Source: Romanomermis culicivorax (taxonomy: Eukaryota > Nematoda > Enoplea > Mermithida > Mermithidae). From it: a DNA stretch of 64,000 bases. The position numbers were made by a program, and so were the translations under genes. Position 1 is the first letter of the stretch, and every line of letters begins with the position of its first letter. The stretch is from NCBI GenBank assembly GCA_963922205.1, contig CAWUHX010000072.1:248001-312000 (forward strand). Direction: 5' to 3'. This document shows, one piece after another, positions 11,454-63,434 of the stretch. The notes beneath the pieces were generated by a model. That model was not told the origin of the DNA, ran no database searches, and was given only the letters and a program-made list of their open reading frames with translations.

Positions 11454-11457
11454 CTAC

Positions 11458-11852
11458 TATAACGATAACGATATATTAAGCTTTTATTGGGTAGCCGTAA
11501 TACAAAGCCAATATCGTAGACGTTGAGTAGCCGTTACAATATAGCGTAAGGCAACTAAAGTTATGGCGAATCACACTGATAGATCGGCTCTAGCTCTCTC
11601 TCCCCTAATCTATCATTATGACAAAGGTTTATAAGCAGTAAAACAGCTAAGTAAATATTATTCCCGTTAGAACGATCGAGCTCCGATAGATAGCTAATTA
11701 TAGCAAAATTATAGCGATAGAGTAAACACAAAACATGGAATCAAACTAGAAACATTAGTTATGGAAAAGCGATAGATTGGACATTACAGAAAATCGTACA
11801 AGGAAGTTAAAACGAGAAATAATGAATATCAACGAATAAACCATTCGTTACA
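11458..11852 (-). repeat. 3' LTR of the gypsy-like retrotransposon
   Basis: The 395-bp repeat starts (minus strand) TGTAACGAATGG and ends CGTTATCGTTATA. It looks identical to the copy at 18768-19162 when compared by eye. The outer flank is CTAC at 11454-11457, the 4-bp target duplication. Confidence 0.97.
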
Positions 11853-11866
11853 CCTCACCCCTTAAG
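11853..11866 (-). promoter_or_regulatory. Polypurine tract
   Basis: On the minus strand a purine-rich stretch, AAGGGGTGAGG, abuts the 3' LTR. This is the usual position of the plus-strand DNA primer of LTR elements. Confidence 0.75.
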
Positions 11867-11892: not shown

Positions 11893-12147
11893 TCACAAAG
11901 GCTTGGTCTCTGTCGTGAATAGTCGTAATCGATTGACATGAACAACTTCGAGGCGACTATCTGGCTTTGTTATGAGTCGTATGTGGGCATTGGGTGGGTC
12001 CATCTTCATGATTCGATATGGTCCATACCAATATACGGTATACTTGGGGCACTTCCCCTGCTTTACTGTCGGATTATGCAAATAAACTATATCTCCTTTC
12101 TTGAAGATCACAATCTTGACTGTTTTATCATATTGGGTTTTCTGCAG
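11893..12147 (-). CDS. Integrase C-terminal domain, in frame after a TGA
   Basis: This frame continues the polyprotein after the TGA at 12148-12150 without a shift: 84 further codons, then a stop. It encodes the basic, SH3-like tail typical of Ty3/gypsy integrases (a FKKGDIVYL start, a GKCPKYTVYWYGPY core and a VVHVNRLR end). It binds DNA and helps target integration. Because the LTRs look identical and the rest of the frame is clean, the single TGA is either a very recent C-to-T change (CGA to TGA would restore Arg) or a leaky stop. An independent start is unlikely, since no ATG precedes the domain closely. Confidence 0.85.
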   Translation of the reverse strand: MQKTQYDKTVKIVIFKKGDIVYLHNPTVKQGKCPKYTVYWYGPYRIMKMDPPNAHIRLITKPDSRLEVVHVNRLRLFTTETKPL

Positions 12148-15100
12148 TCATTGTGCTTGTTGTATGTGCTCTGATGCTATTTGCCATGCCACAGTCAGTC
12201 GATCTTGAAGCTCTTCTTTGTATGATGAAAAGCTCTCAACATAGGGGCTTCGGTATACTGCAAAGTTTTCATCTGCAGGAATCCGGGCATCACGTCCATA
12301 TAGTAAGTAGAAGGGTGTTTCCTTGGTGGATTCATGGACTGATGTGCGATAGGCGAAAAGGGCATACGGTAAGTGAGCATCCCAATTATCATGGGTTGTA
12401 GAGACATACATTTTCAGCATATTTGTCAGTGTGCGATTGAAACGCTCTACCATACCATCACTTTGGGGGTGGTACGGTGTTGTTAGTTTCTGTTCCGTTT
12501 CGCAAAGTCGTGCTATTTCTCGAAATAACTTCGATGTAAAATTTGTACCACAGTCAGAGAGGATTTGATGTGGACTACCAAAGCGACAAACTATATTTTC
12601 TACAAAAAGTCTCGCTGTTATCTCTGCTGTGACATTATTCACTGCAAATACCTCGGGCCACTTAGTAAAGTAGTCCATGAAAACAACAAGATATTTGTTA
12701 CCACGCTCTGTGAGAGGCAAGGGACCCATAACATCGACTGCAATCATGGAAAAGGGATTCCCAGGGATCAATATGGATTGCATTGGAACTTTTGTCTTTT
12801 GATTCGGTTGCTTGTAGGAGAAGCATTTTACACACTCCTTGCACATCTTATGAATGTCGCTATTCAGGTTGTGCCAATAGAATCTTTTGGAAATTTTGGC
12901 GAGCGTTTTCATAAATCCTAAATGACCACTAAACTTGTCTTCATGGTACAATTTGAATATTTTTGTTGTCAGGGACTGTGGGACTACTATACGAGGTGAT
13001 CGGTTATCTTTGTTACCTCTACGATACAGTAGATTGTCCAAAATCATATAATGAGAGGCTTCAGCTGATAAGAACTGGATATCTTCAGCAGACATTGTAG
13101 GATCAATGTATGCTTTCCCGAGATAATCAATTATCCATTTGCAAAATCTATCAGTTCTTTGTGCTTGGGCAACCAGGTTGTGACTTCCACTGTCATCTTC
13201 TTCATTTGAACTATCATCTTCTTCTTCGATTCCTTGTATCATATTTATTTTTCCATCATCCATTCTGATACGAGACAGGGCATCTGCATCATTGTTATTC
13301 TTTCCTGGTTTGTATTTAATGGAGATATTATATTCCAACAGCGCCATCTTCCATCTTGTCAATCTCGAGCTGGTAGATGGATTCTTGTAAATGTACTGCA
13401 GTGGTGCATGATCCGTGACAAGGATGCATTCCTGACCATAAATGTAAGGTCGGAGGGTCTTTATTGCCCAGACAATAGCGAGTGCCTCTAGTTCAATTAC
13501 AGCATAGTTCTTTTCATGCTTGCTTAATGCTCGGCTGATGTATGCAATTGGCTTTTCATTATCATTGTGAATTTGAGCAAGTACTGCTCCTAGAGCATCT
13601 TTACTTGCATCAGTTTTGATGATGAAGGGTTTAGTATAGTCAGGGTAAGCTAGTACGGGAGCTGTAATTAGTGCCTGCTTGAGTTGTTGGAAAGCTTGCT
13701 CACAAGAATCTGTCCAATGGAATAGTACGGCTTTACGGAGAAGTTTGTGAAGAGGGTGAGCAATATCTGCAAAACTGGGAATGAATTTTCTATAGAAGGA
13801 TGCTAGTCCTAGAAAGGATTTTAGCTGTGTTGTATCCTTTGGCTGTGGAAACTCCTTGACAGCTTTAATCTTTGAATCATCGGCTTTCAAGCCCATAGCA
13901 GTGACTTTATATCCGAGGAAACTGACCTCCTCCTGCAAAAATTGACATTTTTTCAACTTCAACTTGAGATTTGCCAATCGCAGCCGTTTAAAAACTTCTT
14001 CAAGCACTTCTTTATGCTTCTCGACTGTCTCTGTGCAGACCAAAATGTCATCCAGGTAAACAAAACAGTTTTTCCATTCGAGGCCAGCCAAAACTTTGTT
14101 CATGGTTCTTTGGAATGTCGCTGGGGCATTGCAAAGTCCAAATGGCATAACATTGAATTCGTATAATCCTGAATAGGTTGTGAATGCCGTTTTTTCACGA
14201 TCTGTTTCATCTACTTCCACCTGCCAGTAGCCTGAGGCAAGATCCAATGTGGAAAAGTATTTAGATTTCCCTACAGTGTCAAGTATATCATCAATACGAG
14301 GTAGCGGAAACACATCTTTCTTTGTGATGTCATTGAGCTTACGGTAGTCGACACAGAATCTTATAGATCCATCTTTCTTTTTGACAGGTACTACAGGACT
14401 TGACCATGGGCTGGTTGATGGTTGTATGAGTTTCCTACTCAAAAGATCCTGTACATTATCATCAATGATTTTTCTTTGGGAAAAAGGGACACGATAAGGT
14501 CGTTGTTTTATTGGTGGATGATCATGGGTTTCTATGTTATGCTTCGTTATATCAGTTCTTCCGAGGTCAGCATCAGAGAGGGCAAAAATGTCCATATTAT
14601 TGATTAAAAATTGGCTCATAATATCATATTGATTAGCTGGACAGTTTCTTAGCTTTTGTTCAATGAGGTTTTCAGCTGAGCTATTGATATCTTTATCTTC
14701 AATGAATAGGATGGACTCCATTTTTACAACATTGCTCTGGCTAAACGTTTCTATATACCCTAGTGTCGTATTTTTGAACAATTTTACTGGTGCTACCGTT
14801 GGGTTTTGACAGATGACTTCAATAGGTGTATTCTGGGTTACCAGCATTTCTTTAATAATCAGATTATTTCGTTGCATCAGAGTTTCTGCAGGTGAGACAA
14901 GGTTGACTTGTTCTGGCAAATTTGGGGCCTTTTGTAGTGTAGTTAACTTGATAATACTACGAGGTGGTACAATTTTCGATTCAGCTAAATGGATGGGCAT
15001 TTTCTTTACTTTTGGCATTTCCCTTTGTGCTGGACAGGATTTGAGGCCTTCAATTAAGGGAATCTGAGACCCGACATCAAAACGAACCCATTTTCTTATG

Positions 15101-18100
15101 ATATCAATGGTCATTTTACCACCTACCTGGACAAGAAAATCGTTGCCCAAAATCATTTGTTGAGGACAGTTGTCCATTACAAAAACTTTCATCATTATTT
15201 GAAAATCGTTAATTACAATAGGTAGCTGTACATGACCAGCCAATTGTACAATGTGACCCGTTAAAGAGGTTGCACCTAGTGGCAGGTCAATTAAATTGAT
15301 GATGGGTTGATTTTTGGAAACATTGTTCTGATTTATTTTTTGGAGATGGCTCTTACTCAGCAAAGATAGTGTGGCTCCAGTGTCAATCAAGGCTAATGTA
15401 CCAGTACCACTAGCAGTGACAAATATCAATGGCTGTTTTATGTTAGAGTTGCCATCAGCAACGTATGAAATGGACGCTTCTCTATTTGCTGGTAGGAGTC
15501 TTGGTATTTGATTATTTCTCAATGGTTCATAACCAGAGATTGTTACTGTGTCACGTGCACCATTGAAAAGTATTTTCTGGTTTCCAACTCTGTGGTTTTT
15601 GTGCCTCAAAAATCTTGGCATTGAAAAACATCGAAAGCAATAACCAAGCTTTGATTTTACTATTAGATAGATGATGAAAACTATCCCGCGTAGTGCTGCA
15701 ACCGTGACTATTAGGTTAAATATCAGTTGTAATGGTCCAGCTAACAGCGTATTGGCTAATTCAGCAGTTCCCTTTGTGGCACTACCAATTAAATGTTCAA
15801 GATTTTTACTGGGTACCTGCATCATTTTACTTGCAGCATTTCCAGCGCCTTCAATCATTTCTTTGAGAGCTGATGGATGTAGTGACAAAGCGGAATTGTA
15901 TTCTATAAGTTGGTTCATTTGTGTCTGAAGTTTCATCACTTTACTCATGTAATTTTTGAACATTCCCAGGCCATTAATGGTGCCTTCTAATTGGTCGTAA
16001 AATATTGCTGGCGCATTGAATATAGTTACATTAGGCACTGAATGCATCAACAATTCTGCGGGGAGCATGCTTACATGGACAGGTCCCCGTTCTGTTCTCC
16101 AATCCTGTGGGGTGTTTTGAAAGATTCCACTTATATGATGGTTACAATTTATGGTAAGTGAAGTGGAAACTAAATCGTGACTGCCTGGGGTAGCAAACAT
16201 TAATTTGTTGTTAATAAGGACAGGAAGGAGCTCATAGCATGTTCCATTAACTTGGTAGTCCCAGAAGATTTTAGATGCTGTATACTTTTTGCATTCCCAT
16301 ACTAATAAAGCTTCTCCAGCAAACTTGGCGTGAATGTCATTTCGGTTGAGGAGTACTCGAGCTCCAAGGGTTGCATCTAATTGTAATAGCTGGTGGATAA
16401 TATTTATCTGTCGGTTGTTCATGTGGCAAAAGTTTGACCACACTTCACGAAAATCATTTGTTTCTAATGCCAATATTTTGGCTTCCAAGTACTGTAGCTT
16501 AGCATTGACTGGATCAACTGGTTTGGGTGGTTGTGGTCGTGAGGGACGAGAGGGATTGGAGGCTCGTTTTGTTCTGTACCTATTAATTATTTTTAGGGCT
16601 ACACCTTGATGAGTTAAGACAGCATCAACAGGTAAGCAGTGGCGTCCTTTGATCTCACTCAGTGGTACATTGAGAATTGAGAATGCACCCTGAATGGCAT
16701 CAATAACATAGAATGAGCCACTATAAACTGCTGAATATGTCTGTAGTTCAACATATTTGCAAGGAGAGACTATCTTTGATGCATCCCATACTATCACTCC
16801 GTCTTGGGTGTCACAGTACCCGCTGGGTGCATAACATGATCCCATATTGCCAAGATCACTTGATAAGGTGTGACCATCAGTGGTGGCAATCTGTCCTTTC
16901 TCCAGAATTAAATTCTCTACAGTGAAACATTTATCTCGACAACACCATTCAAACCGAACATCGAGCGTAAGATTGGTCGTCCAGGATTCATTGGAAGCAA
17001 GTGGGACTAGGGGATGATCCCGATAATGTTTGGTTTCAATAACGGCTTTACATTCACCCATGATAAGAGGCCTTTCTTTGATTTGATCCAACACGATTCC
17101 TTTTGCACCGAAGAATCCAACATTGGTGCAGATTGTTCTTTGGCGAAGTCGGCATTTCCATGCTTCGATTGTGGCTGGTTTGTGGTTTGGCTGGTAGAGC
17201 TTCAGTTGGACCTTCTTTGGCACTTCCTTTGATGGCATTTTGCAATCCATTGTCTTTGGTATTGCGATTGGATGACCGCTGCGGCCATGACCACATTGGT
17301 AGAAATCAAGCTCTACTCCAACAGTCAATGGGCATATTATTGCCATAATAATAATTCCTACAATCATTCCCACTTGAAGGGAGAGGGATTTGGTGGGAGT
17401 ATACTTTTCATACCATCGTATACTGGAAGGATTTTTGTTATCACTAGTTGATACTTTGTTCCTAGCCTTGGACTGCAACTTATTCTTAGAAGTTGACTTT
17501 TTTTTATTCGTTCTGCTACTCTTGTGAATATCTACTGGAAAATCGTCCACATTCTGGTCAGTGGGATACTGTAGCACAATGTCTGATCCACATTTGTAAG
17601 TAGGTAGCTGTGCAGAACACTGAGATACCATATCTTTCTCAGGGGAGGCAGGTTGTGCAGTTACACTGAATGATGGATTTTGTGAGAAATTTTGCGACAT
17701 CTGTTCAAGTTGTCGCCTTAAGCTTTCAACTTCCTGTTCTAGGAGATGTTCCCTACTGGGTGGTGTGCGCTCAGGTTGGACTAAAGGCTGTGCAACATGG
17801 ACACTATGGTTCCCAGGCTTAATTCTAGGAAGCGAGGATTTGGGCATTCTATATGCTGATTGACCCATGGAAACTGCCATGTGTGTGCCATTTTGAATGT
17901 CTCTTTGCCTTTTGCGACATACCGAAATAAAATGACCTGCTTTTTTGCAATAATGACAGGTTTGTTTCTCCGTCTTCTCATGTCGATTCCCTGCTGGACT
18001 ATGATAATTATTGGGTCGACTGTTTTGGGTTTTTATGGTATTTACCCGGTGGCAACCTGACCATTCCTTATTTTCTCTATCTCTCAACTGTGATTCAATT

Positions 18101-18732
18101 AGTAGTTGGGTTTCTAGCTGCCTAGCCAAAATTTCTGCTTCAGAAAACGTTGTGGGGCTACGTTTCATCACATCAGGGCGTAAGTCCTGGTTTAATCCAT
18201 TAATGAAGAATCTTTTACAGAGCGTATCTATAGCATCAGGTGGCAAACCTGGATATGATTCAAGAACTAATTTTTGTATGGCAATACTGAAATCTGTAAC
18301 GCTTTCAGACGATTTTTGACGGCGAGCATGAAGCTCTGTGGATCGAATGTCACTAATATGTGGTGGCCGAAATCTTTGTCGGAAAAGCTCTGTAAGAGCT
18401 AGAAAATCAAGTTGGGTGCGTTGGGTGTCACTAAGACTATTATAAACTATTTCTGCTGCGTCCCGCAACAAGGTTGGGAAAACTAGTCGTTTATATGTTT
18501 CATCCCATTTTTGTGCTTGTGCAACTAAGTTAAACCGATTCAACCAAGACTCGAAATTTTCAGTGGGCCGACCATGAAAGAAATCTGGCTCAAACCGAAT
18601 AAGATTGGGTCGCGGGGTCTGGAGTGCATTGAGCTGCTGATTCTGGATACCTAGCTCCTGACGAACCTGTTCCCGCAACAAATCTAAATTAGTACGTACC
18701 TCGTCCAATGTCATTGCTCGTGTAATTGGCAT
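12148..18732 (-). CDS. Gag-Env-like-Pol polyprotein of a Ty3/gypsy-like element
   Basis: One open frame of 2194 codons starts at ATG 18730-18732, about 35 nt after the 5' LTR. Residues 1-255 are Gag-like (capsid-type helices around FESWLNRF). A CCHC zinc knuckle follows with C259, C262, H267 and C272, then a Leu-rich coiled coil at about 325-348. A membrane glycoprotein-like domain covers about 452-1040 (separate entry). Protease follows with DTG at 1117-1119 and ILGND at 1194-1198. RT has VDYRKLN (1461), LDLASGYWQ (1496), MPFGLCNAP (1529) and YLDD (1559-1562). RNase H has TDASKDALGAVL (1707) and the IELEALA Glu. The integrase zinc site uses H1930, H1937, C1967 and C1970, with catalytic D2000, D2060 and E2096. 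No frameshift separates gag from pol. Reverse transcription and integration would take place in cytosolic and then nuclear particles. All catalytic residues are intact, and the TGA at its end is the only visible defect. Confidence 0.95.
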   Translation of the reverse strand: MPITRAMTLDEVRTNLDLLREQVRQELGIQNQQLNALQTPRPNLIRFEPDFFHGRPTENFESWLNRFNLVAQAQKWDETYKRLVFPTLLRDAAEIVYNSLSDTQRTQLDFLALTELFRQRFRPPHISDIRSTELHARRQKSSESVTDFSIAIQKLVLESYPGLPPDAIDTLCKRFFINGLNQDLRPDVMKRSPTTFSEAEILARQLETQLLIESQLRDRENKEWSGCHRVNTIKTQNSRPNNYHSPAGNRHEKTEKQTCHYCKKAGHFISVCRKRQRDIQNGTHMAVSMGQSAYRMPKSSLPRIKPGNHSVHVAQPLVQPERTPPSREHLLEQEVESLRRQLEQMSQNFSQNPSFSVTAQPASPEKDMVSQCSAQLPTYKCGSDIVLQYPTDQNVDDFPVDIHKSSRTNKKKSTSKNKLQSKARNKVSTSDNKNPSSIRWYEKYTPTKSLSLQVGMIVGIIIMAIICPLTVGVELDFYQCGHGRSGHPIAIPKTMDCKMPSKEVPKKVQLKLYQPNHKPATIEAWKCRLRQRTICTNVGFFGAKGIVLDQIKERPLIMGECKAVIETKHYRDHPLVPLASNESWTTNLTLDVRFEWCCRDKCFTVENLILEKGQIATTDGHTLSSDLGNMGSCYAPSGYCDTQDGVIVWDASKIVSPCKYVELQTYSAVYSGSFYVIDAIQGAFSILNVPLSEIKGRHCLPVDAVLTHQGVALKIINRYRTKRASNPSRPSRPQPPKPVDPVNAKLQYLEAKILALETNDFREVWSNFCHMNNRQINIIHQLLQLDATLGARVLLNRNDIHAKFAGEALLVWECKKYTASKIFWDYQVNGTCYELLPVLINNKLMFATPGSHDLVSTSLTINCNHHISGIFQNTPQDWRTERGPVHVSMLPAELLMHSVPNVTIFNAPAIFYDQLEGTINGLGMFKNYMSKVMKLQTQMNQLIEYNSALSLHPSALKEMIEGAGNAASKMMQVPSKNLEHLIGSATKGTAELANTLLAGPLQLIFNLIVTVAALRGIVFIIYLIVKSKLGYCFRCFSMPRFLRHKNHRVGNQKILFNGARDTVTISGYEPLRNNQIPRLLPANREASISYVADGNSNIKQPLIFVTASGTGTLALIDTGATLSLLSKSHLQKINQNNVSKNQPIINLIDLPLGATSLTGHIVQLAGHVQLPIVINDFQIMMKVFVMDNCPQQMILGNDFLVQVGGKMTIDIIRKWVRFDVGSQIPLIEGLKSCPAQREMPKVKKMPIHLAESKIVPPRSIIKLTTLQKAPNLPEQVNLVSPAETLMQRNNLIIKEMLVTQNTPIEVICQNPTVAPVKLFKNTTLGYIETFSQSNVVKMESILFIEDKDINSSAENLIEQKLRNCPANQYDIMSQFLINNMDIFALSDADLGRTDITKHNIETHDHPPIKQRPYRVPFSQRKIIDDNVQDLLSRKLIQPSTSPWSSPVVPVKKKDGSIRFCVDYRKLNDITKKDVFPLPRIDDILDTVGKSKYFSTLDLASGYWQVEVDETDREKTAFTTYSGLYEFNVMPFGLCNAPATFQRTMNKVLAGLEWKNCFVYLDDILVCTETVEKHKEVLEEVFKRLRLANLKLKLKKCQFLQEEVSFLGYKVTAMGLKADDSKIKAVKEFPQPKDTTQLKSFLGLASFYRKFIPSFADIAHPLHKLLRKAVLFHWTDSCEQAFQQLKQALITAPVLAYPDYTKPFIIKTDASKDALGAVLAQIHNDNEKPIAYISRALSKHEKNYAVIELEALAIVWAIKTLRPYIYGQECILVTDHAPLQYIYKNPSTSSRLTRWKMALLEYNISIKYKPGKNNNDADALSRIRMDDGKINMIQGIEEEDDSSNEEDDSGSHNLVAQAQRTDRFCKWIIDYLGKAYIDPTMSAEDIQFLSAEASHYMILDNLLYRRGNKDNRSPRIVVPQSLTTKIFKLYHEDKFSGHLGFMKTLAKISKRFYWHNLNSDIHKMCKECVKCFSYKQPNQKTKVPMQSILIPGNPFSMIAVDVMGPLPLTERGNKYLVVFMDYFTKWPEVFAVNNVTAEITARLFVENIVCRFGSPHQILSDCGTNFTSKLFREIARLCETEQKLTTPYHPQSDGMVERFNRTLTNMLKMYVSTTHDNWDAHLPYALFAYRTSVHESTKETPFYLLYGRDARIPADENFAVYRSPYVESFSSYKEELQDRLTVAWQIASEHIQQAQ
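15618..17379 (-). other. Internal envelope-like glycoprotein domain
   Basis: Residues about 452-1040 of the polyprotein. A basic stretch precedes a hydrophobic helix at about 453-472 (VGMIVGIIIMAIIC), fit for a signal peptide or signal anchor. The ectodomain has many Cys (480, 497, 527, 535, 561, 597, 598, 602, 633, 640, 658, 699, then 769, 813, 832, 863). N-glycosylation sequons are at N581, N587, N829 and N901. RTKR at 720-723 is a furin-type site followed by a Pro-rich linker, with no obvious fusion peptide right after it. A heptad-like stretch (about 922-950) precedes the second transmembrane helix at about 998-1025, then a Cys/Arg-rich tail. I cannot assign it to a fusion-protein class by eye. 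Confidence 0.85.
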
Positions 18733-18753: not shown

Positions 18754-18767
18754 TTGATGACCCCCCA
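18754..18767 (-). promoter_or_regulatory. Primer-binding site
   Basis: Read on the minus strand, TGGGGGGTCATC begins directly after the 5' LTR, starting with the TGG that pairs with a tRNA 3' CCA end. I do not recognise which tRNA. Confidence 0.7.
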
Positions 18768-19162
18768 TATAACGATAACGATATATTAAGCTTTTATTGG
18801 GTAGCCGTAATACAAAGCCAATATCGTAGACGTTGAGTAGCCGTTACAATATAGCGTAAGGCAACTAAAGTTATGGCGAATCACACTGATAGATCGGCTC
18901 TAGCTCTCTCTCCCCTAATCTATCATTATGACAAAGGTTTATAAGCAGTAAAACAGCTAAGTAAATATTATTCCCGTTAGAACGATCGAGCTCCGATAGA
19001 TAGCTAATTATAGCAAAATTATAGCGATAGAGTAAACACAAAACATGGAATCAAACTAGAAACATTAGTTATGGAAAAGCGATAGATTGGACATTACAGA
19101 AAATCGTACAAGGAAGTTAAAACGAGAAATAATGAATATCAACGAATAAACCATTCGTTACA
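18768..19162 (-). repeat. 5' LTR of the gypsy-like retrotransposon
   Basis: The 395-bp repeat looks identical by eye to 11458-11852. The outer flank CTAC at 19163-19166 matches 11454-11457, giving a 4-bp TSD. Matching LTRs indicate a recent insertion. Transcription on the minus strand would start within this repeat; no exact start can be read. Confidence 0.97.
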
Positions 19163-19246
19163 CTACCCAACCTGGTCAACTCTATACCCAAAACCCCCAA
19201 ACTCAGAAAATTAGGAAAAAGTACCTTTTTGGATTTTTGGAAGTCT

Positions 19247-24061: not shown

Positions 24062-25162
24062 AAACCCCATTGTGTGCGCAGCACCATATTCCAGTTCAAA
24101 GACAAATTCTACCAACAAACAGATGGCATGGCAATGGGTTCACCACTATCCCCTGCACTTTGTAACCTGTTCATGGACAAACTTGAAACATCAGCATTGA
24201 AAACAGCACCAGACAAGCCAAGAATCTGGCTGTGATATGTGGATGACACATTCATCCTGTGGGACCATGGTGAGGAAAAACTAAGATCCTTCCTAGAACA
24301 TATGAACCAACAGAATCCAGCCATACAGTTCACCATGGAAACAGAAATCAATGGGCAGTTACCATTCCTAGATGTTCTTGTCAAATGGCAAGGACAGACA
24401 ATGGCAACAAGTGTCTACCATAAACCAACGCACACAGACCAATATCTGAACTTCCAGTCAAACCATCCTGTAAACACCAAAGCAGGAATTGTAAAGGGAA
24501 TGATATTGCGGTCAGGTACACTATGCTCAACTGAAGAAACCAGGAAAGTCGAAGAAAATAACATCAGGCAAGCCTTCAAGAAAAATGGTTATCCCACAGC
24601 AATCATTAACAAAGCAAATATAAGAAGAAATGCAAATGACCAACAAAAAGTTGAATACAAAGGCACGGTTGTAATACATTACAGTGGCCAACTAACACAG
24701 AAACTGAAGCGAATATGCCACAAGTACAAGGTTCGACTAGTTGCCACAAGTAAAGACACAATCAGGAAAAGAGTCAGCAAAGTAGCACCAACTAGAAATA
24801 AAGAAGATACACAGGGTATAGTATACCAAGTACCTATGGCTCCATGTGGGAAAGTATACATAGGAGAAACAGGCAGAACACTTAAGACCCGTATTGCAGA
24901 ACACAGAAATGCCCTTAAGAACCTGAGCCTTGAGAAAAGTGGTGTGGCGGAACATTGCCTATCATGTGGATGTACACCCAATTTTGACAATACCACCATA
25001 CTTGCCCAAGAGCCTAATGCCTACAAAAGGAAGATCAGAGAAACCATTGAGATGGAAAAAGTGGGGTCAAAAAATGTAGGTAGTAAGAGCATTGAAATAG
25101 GCCACATATGGAACCAAGCATTCCTTAGAAGGGCAACAGACAGGTACCCAAGTCTGAACTAG
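24062..25162 (+). pseudogene. Penelope-like element: RT C-terminal part plus GIY-YIG endonuclease
   Basis: The reading frame opens just inside the left pLTR with RT text (TDGMAMGSPLSPALCNLFM), then IWL, a TGA stop at 24233-24235 and YVDD. After it the frame runs 307 codons to 25162. It covers the remainder of the RT (FLDVLV, VYHKPTHTDQYL), a basic linker and a GIY-YIG nuclease (GIVYQVP..GKVYIGETGRT.KTRIAEH, residues about 193-221 of the open part). RT followed by a C-terminal GIY-YIG domain is the hallmark of Penelope-like retroelements. The first RT motifs are missing, so it is 5'-truncated as well as interrupted. The TGA sits where an Arg or similar residue precedes YVDD. Confidence 0.9.

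Positions 25163-50353: not shown

Positions 50354-63434
<13,081 letters not shown>

Follow-up and report, generated by a model that had tools for sequence, protein, structure and literature searches.

The window analysed here is a stretch of 64,000 nucleotides of the genome of the nematode Romanomermis culicivorax (contig CAWUHX010000072.1, positions 248,001 to 312,000). Its minus strand carries a long terminal repeat (LTR) retroelement whose envelope-like glycoprotein (Env) is encoded between Gag and protease (PR), in one frame with both and with the rest of Pol: reverse transcriptase (RT), RNase H and integrase (IN). The Env ectodomain lies between two putative transmembrane helices, TM1 and TM2. 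Residue numbers (amino acids, aa) refer to the frame of the window element. The features of the frame are:

12148..18732, minus strand: Gag-Env-Pol frame, 2194 codons, ATG start, stop codon at 12148-12150
18262..18483, minus strand: Gag, Retrotrans_gag match, aa 84-157 (Pfam, E 4.2e-5)
17917..17958, minus strand: CCHC zinc knuckle, aa 259-272 (motif; Pfam knuckle model below cut-off)
17317..17373, minus strand: TM1, internal signal/anchor-like helix, aa 454-472 (hydropathy)
15715..17316, minus strand: Env ectodomain, Cys-rich, predicted class III fusion protein, aa 473-1006 (profile and predicted fold)
16564..16575, minus strand: RTKR furin-type site, aa 720-723 (motif; unconserved across families)
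16117..16518, minus strand: Monjiviricetes_fusion (PF24664), best stretch aa 739-872 (Pfam)
15658..15714, minus strand: TM2, stop-transfer-like helix, aa 1007-1025 (hydropathy)
15376..15384, minus strand: protease active-site DTG in LIDTGA, aa 1117-1119 (motif)
13903..14385, minus strand: reverse transcriptase, RVT_1, aa 1450-1610, YLDD at 1559 (Pfam and motif)
13330..13716, minus strand: RNase H, aa 1673-1801 (two Pfam RNase H models)
12466..12984, minus strand: integrase H2C2 zinc domain and rve core, aa 1917-2089 (Pfam Integrase_H2C2, rve)

An earlier note on this DNA had described the 2194-codon frame and its features; motif and Pfam searches located these at or near the residues it gave. 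Its central observation, that a single frame has Env between Gag and protease, is upheld by the order of the Pfam matches and by its recurrence across families (below). With the frame read in three pieces, the matches run Retrotrans_gag, Monjiviricetes_fusion, RVT_1, RNase H (two models), Integrase_H2C2 and rve; the Retrotrans_gag score of 24.1 bits is exactly the model cut-off. Pol is of the Ty3/Gypsy type and not of the BEL type: the order is PR-RT-RNase H-IN with DTG preceding RT, and the closest solved structure is Ty3 Gag-Pol (E 2.9e-128). The identical 395-bp LTRs and a target-site duplication (GTAG) within the range of 4-6 bp agree with this assignment.

Predicted class of Env

The Monjiviricetes_fusion match in the window scores 54.1 bits against a cut-off of 27 (E 8.9e-15, Pfam), and Env, the middle segment of the frame, matches herpesvirus gB both by profile and by predicted fold. 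Fold matches are a mixture of chu-like, rhabdo-like, nyami-, entomopox- and herpesvirus proteins. The protein searches with Env, one of them a profile search with six matches, returned no match named as chuvirus, and no relatives were found in IMG/VR. Judged by profile and predicted fold, Env is a homologue of the viral class III fusion proteins (Monjiviricetes/gB). The earlier note had proposed comparing Env with fusion proteins of classes I, II and III; both routes led to class III, and a class I or II protein was set aside. A captured host protein appears unlikely since the homology is viral.

The ectodomain alignment of 15 sequences contains 34 invariant columns, 12 of them Cys. The RTKR site reported earlier is indeed present at aa 720-723 of the window frame; it is not general, an R-x-K/R-R site being found within the ectodomain in two of 11 families (the window family and L015; families are named by fetched locus). 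Not all class III fusion proteins require cleavage.

Recurrence across the genome

The window belongs to a 359-Mb assembly of 595 contigs. The best of its three COX1 matches contains 11 TGA codons in frame, is open when read with the invertebrate mitochondrial code and shares 97% identity over 98% with COX1 of Romanomermis culicivorax, a mermithid nematode that parasitizes mosquitoes; it sits near position 1 Mb of a contig and may be a nuclear copy, and it points to Romanomermis all the same. This assembly was searched with Env, 66 of 4006 candidates being scored. At least 21 rows at 87-100% identity belong to the window family (some rows are pieces of one copy) and at least 45, at 37-44% identity, to other families. 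Twenty of these 45 loci were fetched; they were picked by their Env match, so that the evidence lies in the neighbourhood of Env and not in its presence. All 20 have pol after Env on the same strand. The errantivirus-type arrangement, env downstream of pol, was thus seen neither in the window nor in any fetched relative. A gag match was detected before Env in 14 loci, and at eight one uninterrupted frame spans 2405-2703 codons. Four of the eight (L010, L011, L012 and L020) are without a gag match, and L020 is without part of pol; CCHC knuckles precede Env in L010 and L012 despite the missing match. At an Env identity of <60% there are at least 11 families, that of the window included. In all seven natural frames examined whole the order is CCHC, helix, helix, YLDD; in six of them D[ST]G follows the second helix and precedes YLDD, the strict pattern having missed L010.

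Approached from pol, with rows of >=69% identity set aside as the window family, 21 of the 23 pol places among the matches listed have Env on their 5′ side (19 from the Env searches and two more from fetched loci L033 and L034). No env match was present in the 1.3-1.4 kb fetched at the other two places, C321 and C104, and blastn with known copies was also empty. The pol matches there begin within pol (residues 172 and 85, respectively). With gag matched some 8 kb upstream of its pol, the C321 copy may have been interrupted and not truncated.

The RT and Env trees have their main, deep splits in common among reliable rows; in the RT tree L017 (11% filled) and L024 (which crosses a broken frame) are unreliable. 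Because of this agreement, one Env insertion before the families diverged, followed by joint descent, would be the simplest history. Of the 20 fetched loci, 11 have LTR pairs, most cut by the locus ends: five are 100% identical over 44-317 nt, three more exceed 99% and three are at 94-98%. Several families so have young copies.

Selection was assessed by the ratio of nonsynonymous to synonymous substitution rates (dN/dS), pooled over copy pairs within each family; between families it is saturated in all but one piece. Env dN/dS is <1 in each of the six families compared. Env is almost as well preserved as RT in the L009 family (0.21 vs 0.18 over 10 Env pairs) and in the L015 family (0.28 vs 0.27 over three). 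One Env pair each gave 0.37 vs 0.15 in the L010 family and 0 vs 0.27 in the L012 family.

Internal-deletion derivatives and tandem copies

At least five near-intact gag copies of the window family (97-99%; C15, C115, C122:267814, C211 and C119) are without window Env or Pol rows among the matches listed, as are more degraded gag fragments. C15 and C211, read as L037 and L038, both hold pieces absent among those matches, which are hence a lower bound. In both a deletion of 3867 nt (window coordinates) fuses the first 92 Env residues to integrase, giving the order Gag, TM1, 92 aa of Env, integrase. The junction lies at a short direct repeat and is without GT-AG ends, which rules out a spliced copy. 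The deletion is in-frame and the C15 frame stays open for 995 codons. Frames of 995 codons occur at three loci, which suggests that the derivative has been multiplied, presumably with full elements acting in trans. The same deletion is perhaps also present at C115, C122:267814 and C119.

Tandem arrangements were also observed. C77 and C293 each hold three head-to-tail copies of the window family, spaced by 7308 bp and about 7.45 kb respectively, with LTRs probably in common. At C180:404-17640 three Env matches recur at intervals of 8365 bp and probably mark a tandem array of a different family. One Env match (C371:149100-150899) falls within a reported open frame of 24354 codons, which is probably a run of N in the record.

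Relatives beyond this genome

The earlier note had suggested looking for the same domain order in other genomes, and it was found there in halves. P0004 (an ENA contig) has Gag-Env, its gag being 43% identical to that of the window over 157 residues. P0005 (also an ENA contig) has Env followed by protease/RT, with 32% identity over 328 residues; its frame starts at Env and Gag is not seen there. A third contig, P0006 (NCBI, 5675 bp), has the same kind of Env in frame after a BEL-type integrase tail, the match to the tail being weak (DUF5641, E 0.015, below its cut-off). Judging by this placement, related Envs seem to occur in retroelements of two classes, and at two positions. In an Env tree that includes P0004 to P0007 and P0009, support is only 84-88% for the grouping of P0004 and P0005 with the BEL-type P0006, and the branch of P0009 is very long.

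Predicted topology and proposed mechanism

TM1 is located immediately before and TM2 immediately after the ectodomain in all 11 families; the hydropathy threshold misses TM1 in one of 21 rows (L024). All 11 families carry a net charge of +2 to +6 over the 25 residues preceding TM1, and one of 0 to +5 on its ectodomain side. Before TM2 the charge is -1 to +1, and after it positive in 10/11. These flanking charges fit a predicted topology with cytosolic N- and C-termini, weakly so at TM1 of L013.

The proposed mechanism is as follows. Gag would be translated first, in the cytosol. The helix after Gag would act as an internal signal through which the chain is threaded into the endoplasmic reticulum (ER), and the ectodomain would fold and be glycosylated in the lumen. 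TM2 would halt transfer, and protease, RT, RNase H and integrase would then be made on the cytosolic side. Signal peptidase and the element protease would release Gag and Pol at the cytosolic face, leaving Env membrane-bound. Packaging and fusion parts would thereby be on one membrane patch, ready for budding or cell-to-cell spread. Such a chain would yield Gag, Pol and glycoprotein at 1:1:1, as the earlier note had also supposed, and the Gag:Pol stoichiometry would need to be set post-translationally. Other single-frame elements likewise set this stoichiometry after translation.

We estimate at roughly 0.65 the probability that a Ty3/Gypsy-type lineage has fixed a class III Env between Gag and protease, made as a single two-pass polyprotein whose mechanism we infer. 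For the broader statement, that a Gypsy-type lineage beyond one genome makes cytosolic Gag, lumenal Env and cytosolic Pol as one membrane-threaded polyprotein, we see slightly better than even odds.

Alternative explanations

Several observations weigh against this proposal. It is built on DNA sequence and prediction; no protease cleavage site is known and none was sought systematically. The Env model is middling (pLDDT 66, pTM 0.38, with 165 of 600 residues <50; these are the model's predicted local and global accuracy scores), its C-terminal third is poorly placed, and the superpositions on gB are loose (Foldseek template-modelling score 0.43, root-mean-square deviation 19 Å). At TM1 of L013 the charge is higher on the ectodomain side (+5) than on the cytosolic side (+3). 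A Met lies at most 25 aa before TM1 in L012, L015 and L019, and among the first three TM1 residues in the window family and L009. In the window copy the ATG is followed at 33 nt by a fair donor-like site, GAG|GTACGT (8.6 bits), and donor-like and acceptor-like sites occur together in L013; the splice-site scans used a generic consensus and not one trained on Romanomermis. Env dN/dS exceeds that of RT in five of the six families, among them the window family (0.48 vs 0.38; 15 Env pairs, decayed copies included) and L017 (0.67 over three pairs vs 0.52, the latter over only 50-51 codons); in these two families, whose copies are often broken, Env is kept less well than RT. The integrase of the window copy is broken, and neither P0004 nor P0005 alone has the full Gag-Env-Pol order.

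The genomic order could be real and Gag-Pol and Env nevertheless be made separately, either by alternative splicing, with the env segment partly intron-like or env joined to a leader close to the gag ATG, or from a start codon of Env's own. There is precedent for splicing in retroviral env and, in the available part of PMC10309623, in the CERV protein of Cer1, which is made from a spliced mRNA; the sites in the window and L013 noted above could serve in this way. Against splicing, of nine families tested four have a donor-like site near the ATG (the window family among them), each at a different position, and three have acceptor-like sites, again at differing positions. Strict donor-like sites are absent from the 700 nt before Env in 11/11 families, which is weak evidence as 0.02-0.2 are expected in each. 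The internal deletion at two loci, which might have recorded a spliced message, is joined at a direct repeat without GT-AG ends. As to a separate start, a Met near TM1 makes an Env start codon possible in five of 11 families; there is none in the other six, and Env is for this reason, as read from the sequences, without a conserved start codon of its own. Splicing may operate in individual families. We consider separate production in general unlikely, and translation as one polyprotein would be the simplest reading. The two-pass topology with cytosolic Gag and Pol put forward in the earlier note thus holds as a prediction, favoured by the helix-flank charges and by the lack of conserved Env start and splice sites, with the L013 charges at TM1 running counter to it.

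Alternatively, Env might no longer serve entry and be retained to anchor Gag and Pol at the ER or some other membrane, where particles would assemble inside the cell. The predicted topology would tether both proteins, the furin site is unconserved (cleavage not being needed by every class III protein) and Env dN/dS is high in the L017 family. Against this, conservation covers the whole ectodomain and not the helices alone, down to the invariant Cys columns, Env dN/dS is low in the L009 and L015 families, and the same kind of glycoprotein follows the weakly matched BEL-type integrase tail of P0006. We regard this role as distinctly improbable. An accident at a single locus, be it chance recombination, capture of a host gene or misassembly, would leave at least 11 families on many contigs, the congruent main splits of the RT and Env trees, and the halves of the order in proteins from two other contigs (P0004 and P0005) unaccounted for. 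Its likelihood is so slight that we rule it out; the earlier note had itself listed recombination and assembly error as threats to its reading, and both fail on the recurrence of the order across families.

Termini and surroundings of the window element

The termini of the two-LTR element could be assigned as follows:

11454..11457, no strand: target-site duplication GTAG (plus strand CTAC), 3′ side of element (direct reading)
11458..11852, minus strand: 3′ LTR, 395 bp, TGTAACG...CGTTATA, identical to 5′ LTR (LTR comparison and reading)
11853..11863, minus strand: purine-rich tract AAGGGGTGAGG immediately 5′ of the 3′ LTR, presumably the plus-strand primer (direct reading)
11893..12147, minus strand: integrase C-terminus, coding-like continuation past the in-frame stop, GPY-like motif (by eye)
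18756..18767, minus strand: primer-binding-site-like TGGGGGGTCATC directly after the 5′ LTR (direct reading)
18768..19162, minus strand: 5′ LTR, 395 bp (LTR comparison and reading)
19163..19166, no strand: target-site duplication GTAG (plus strand CTAC), 5′ side of element (direct reading)

The exact LTR match is a run of 396 nt, of which 395 were assigned to the LTR from the termini and the GTAG duplication. The 3′ terminus of the LTR is TA instead of the usual CA, and 35 nt separate the end of the 5′ LTR from the ATG. Both LTRs being identical, the window element is suggested to be a recent insertion. The interval from the stop to the 3′ LTR is only about 0.25 kb of integrase-like sequence, with about 85 coding-like codons past the stop by eye; a derivative copy has an open frame at the position of this stop. 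A WYGPYRI-like motif, which we liken to the GPY/F module of the Ty3/Gypsy integrase C-terminus, was read by eye past the stop and in one open derivative. As the in-frame stop removes the end of integrase, the window copy is probably not a working element.

Elsewhere in the window, exon-like pieces of a protein kinase gene, which we take to be JNK/MAPK-like, occupy 50867-61448 on the minus strand (Pfam Pkinase at 54282-54575). A 307-aa frame with a GIY-YIG-like motif at 24239-25162 on the plus strand has no Pfam match at E<=0.01; it resembles the C-terminus of a Penelope-like element.

Comparison with known systems

In retroviruses and in the env-carrying retrotransposons of the literature consulted, Env is apart from Gag-Pol in place or in message, or is terminal in the chain. 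A conserved mid-chain Env would mean that enveloped particles of retroelements can arise from a single threaded precursor, with Env a fixed and not an optional part of the element. If such a lineage is real, it is a natural system that couples the amounts and the delivery of Gag, Env and Pol. To the known captures of class III glycoproteins it would also add one by a Gypsy-type element.

Classical errantiviruses have env after pol and express it from a spliced mRNA. The window Env resembles glycoprotein gB and Monjiviricetes G in sequence profile and in predicted fold; in the DNA or negative-strand RNA viruses that encode them, those proteins have a gene to themselves, outside any Gag-Pol polyprotein.

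The papers compared here are cited for those parts of them that were available. The Anakin elements of mosquitoes are BEL/Pao elements with a chuvirus-derived glycoprotein (PMC7642597); like the window element they are LTR elements with a glycoprotein of the Jingchuvirales/Monjiviricetes kind, and they differ from it in having a BEL pol, the window element having a Ty3/Gypsy-like pol with Env between Gag and protease. The same source places an envelope-like protein downstream of the polyprotein in Roo, Tas and Cer-7. Atlas virus, a hookworm belpaovirus, has one Gag-Pol-Env frame of 2828 residues (PMC9094657). It shares with the window element a nematode host, one uninterrupted frame that includes Env, and identical LTRs. 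An Env within a single-frame retroelement polyprotein is therefore already known from Atlas. What sets the window element apart is the position of Env (Gag-Env-Pol, against C-terminal in Atlas), its class (class III, against class II phlebovirus-like) and the kind of pol (Ty3/Gypsy, against BEL). Env-carrying Gypsy elements (Chary and Hayashi 2025) are widespread in metazoans as described by PMC13172572 and PMC12859917; these and the errantiviruses have a Gypsy pol and an env gene, as the window element does. A 2023 survey centred on arthropods reported, in the part available, no clear Gypsy capture of Jingchuvirales glycoproteins (PMC10084718). No description of the Gag-Env-Pol order was found in the literature searched, which did not cover the gene orders of Chary and Hayashi 2025.

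If the two-pass reading is correct, the element would be the retroelement form of a flavivirus-type polyprotein, assembling at the membrane of its synthesis. The polyproteins of flaviviruses and pestiviruses combine a cytosolic capsid, an internal signal, a lumenal glycoprotein and cytosolic enzymes in one chain, and so work alike in outline; the proteins are unrelated, and these are positive-strand RNA viruses without reverse transcription.
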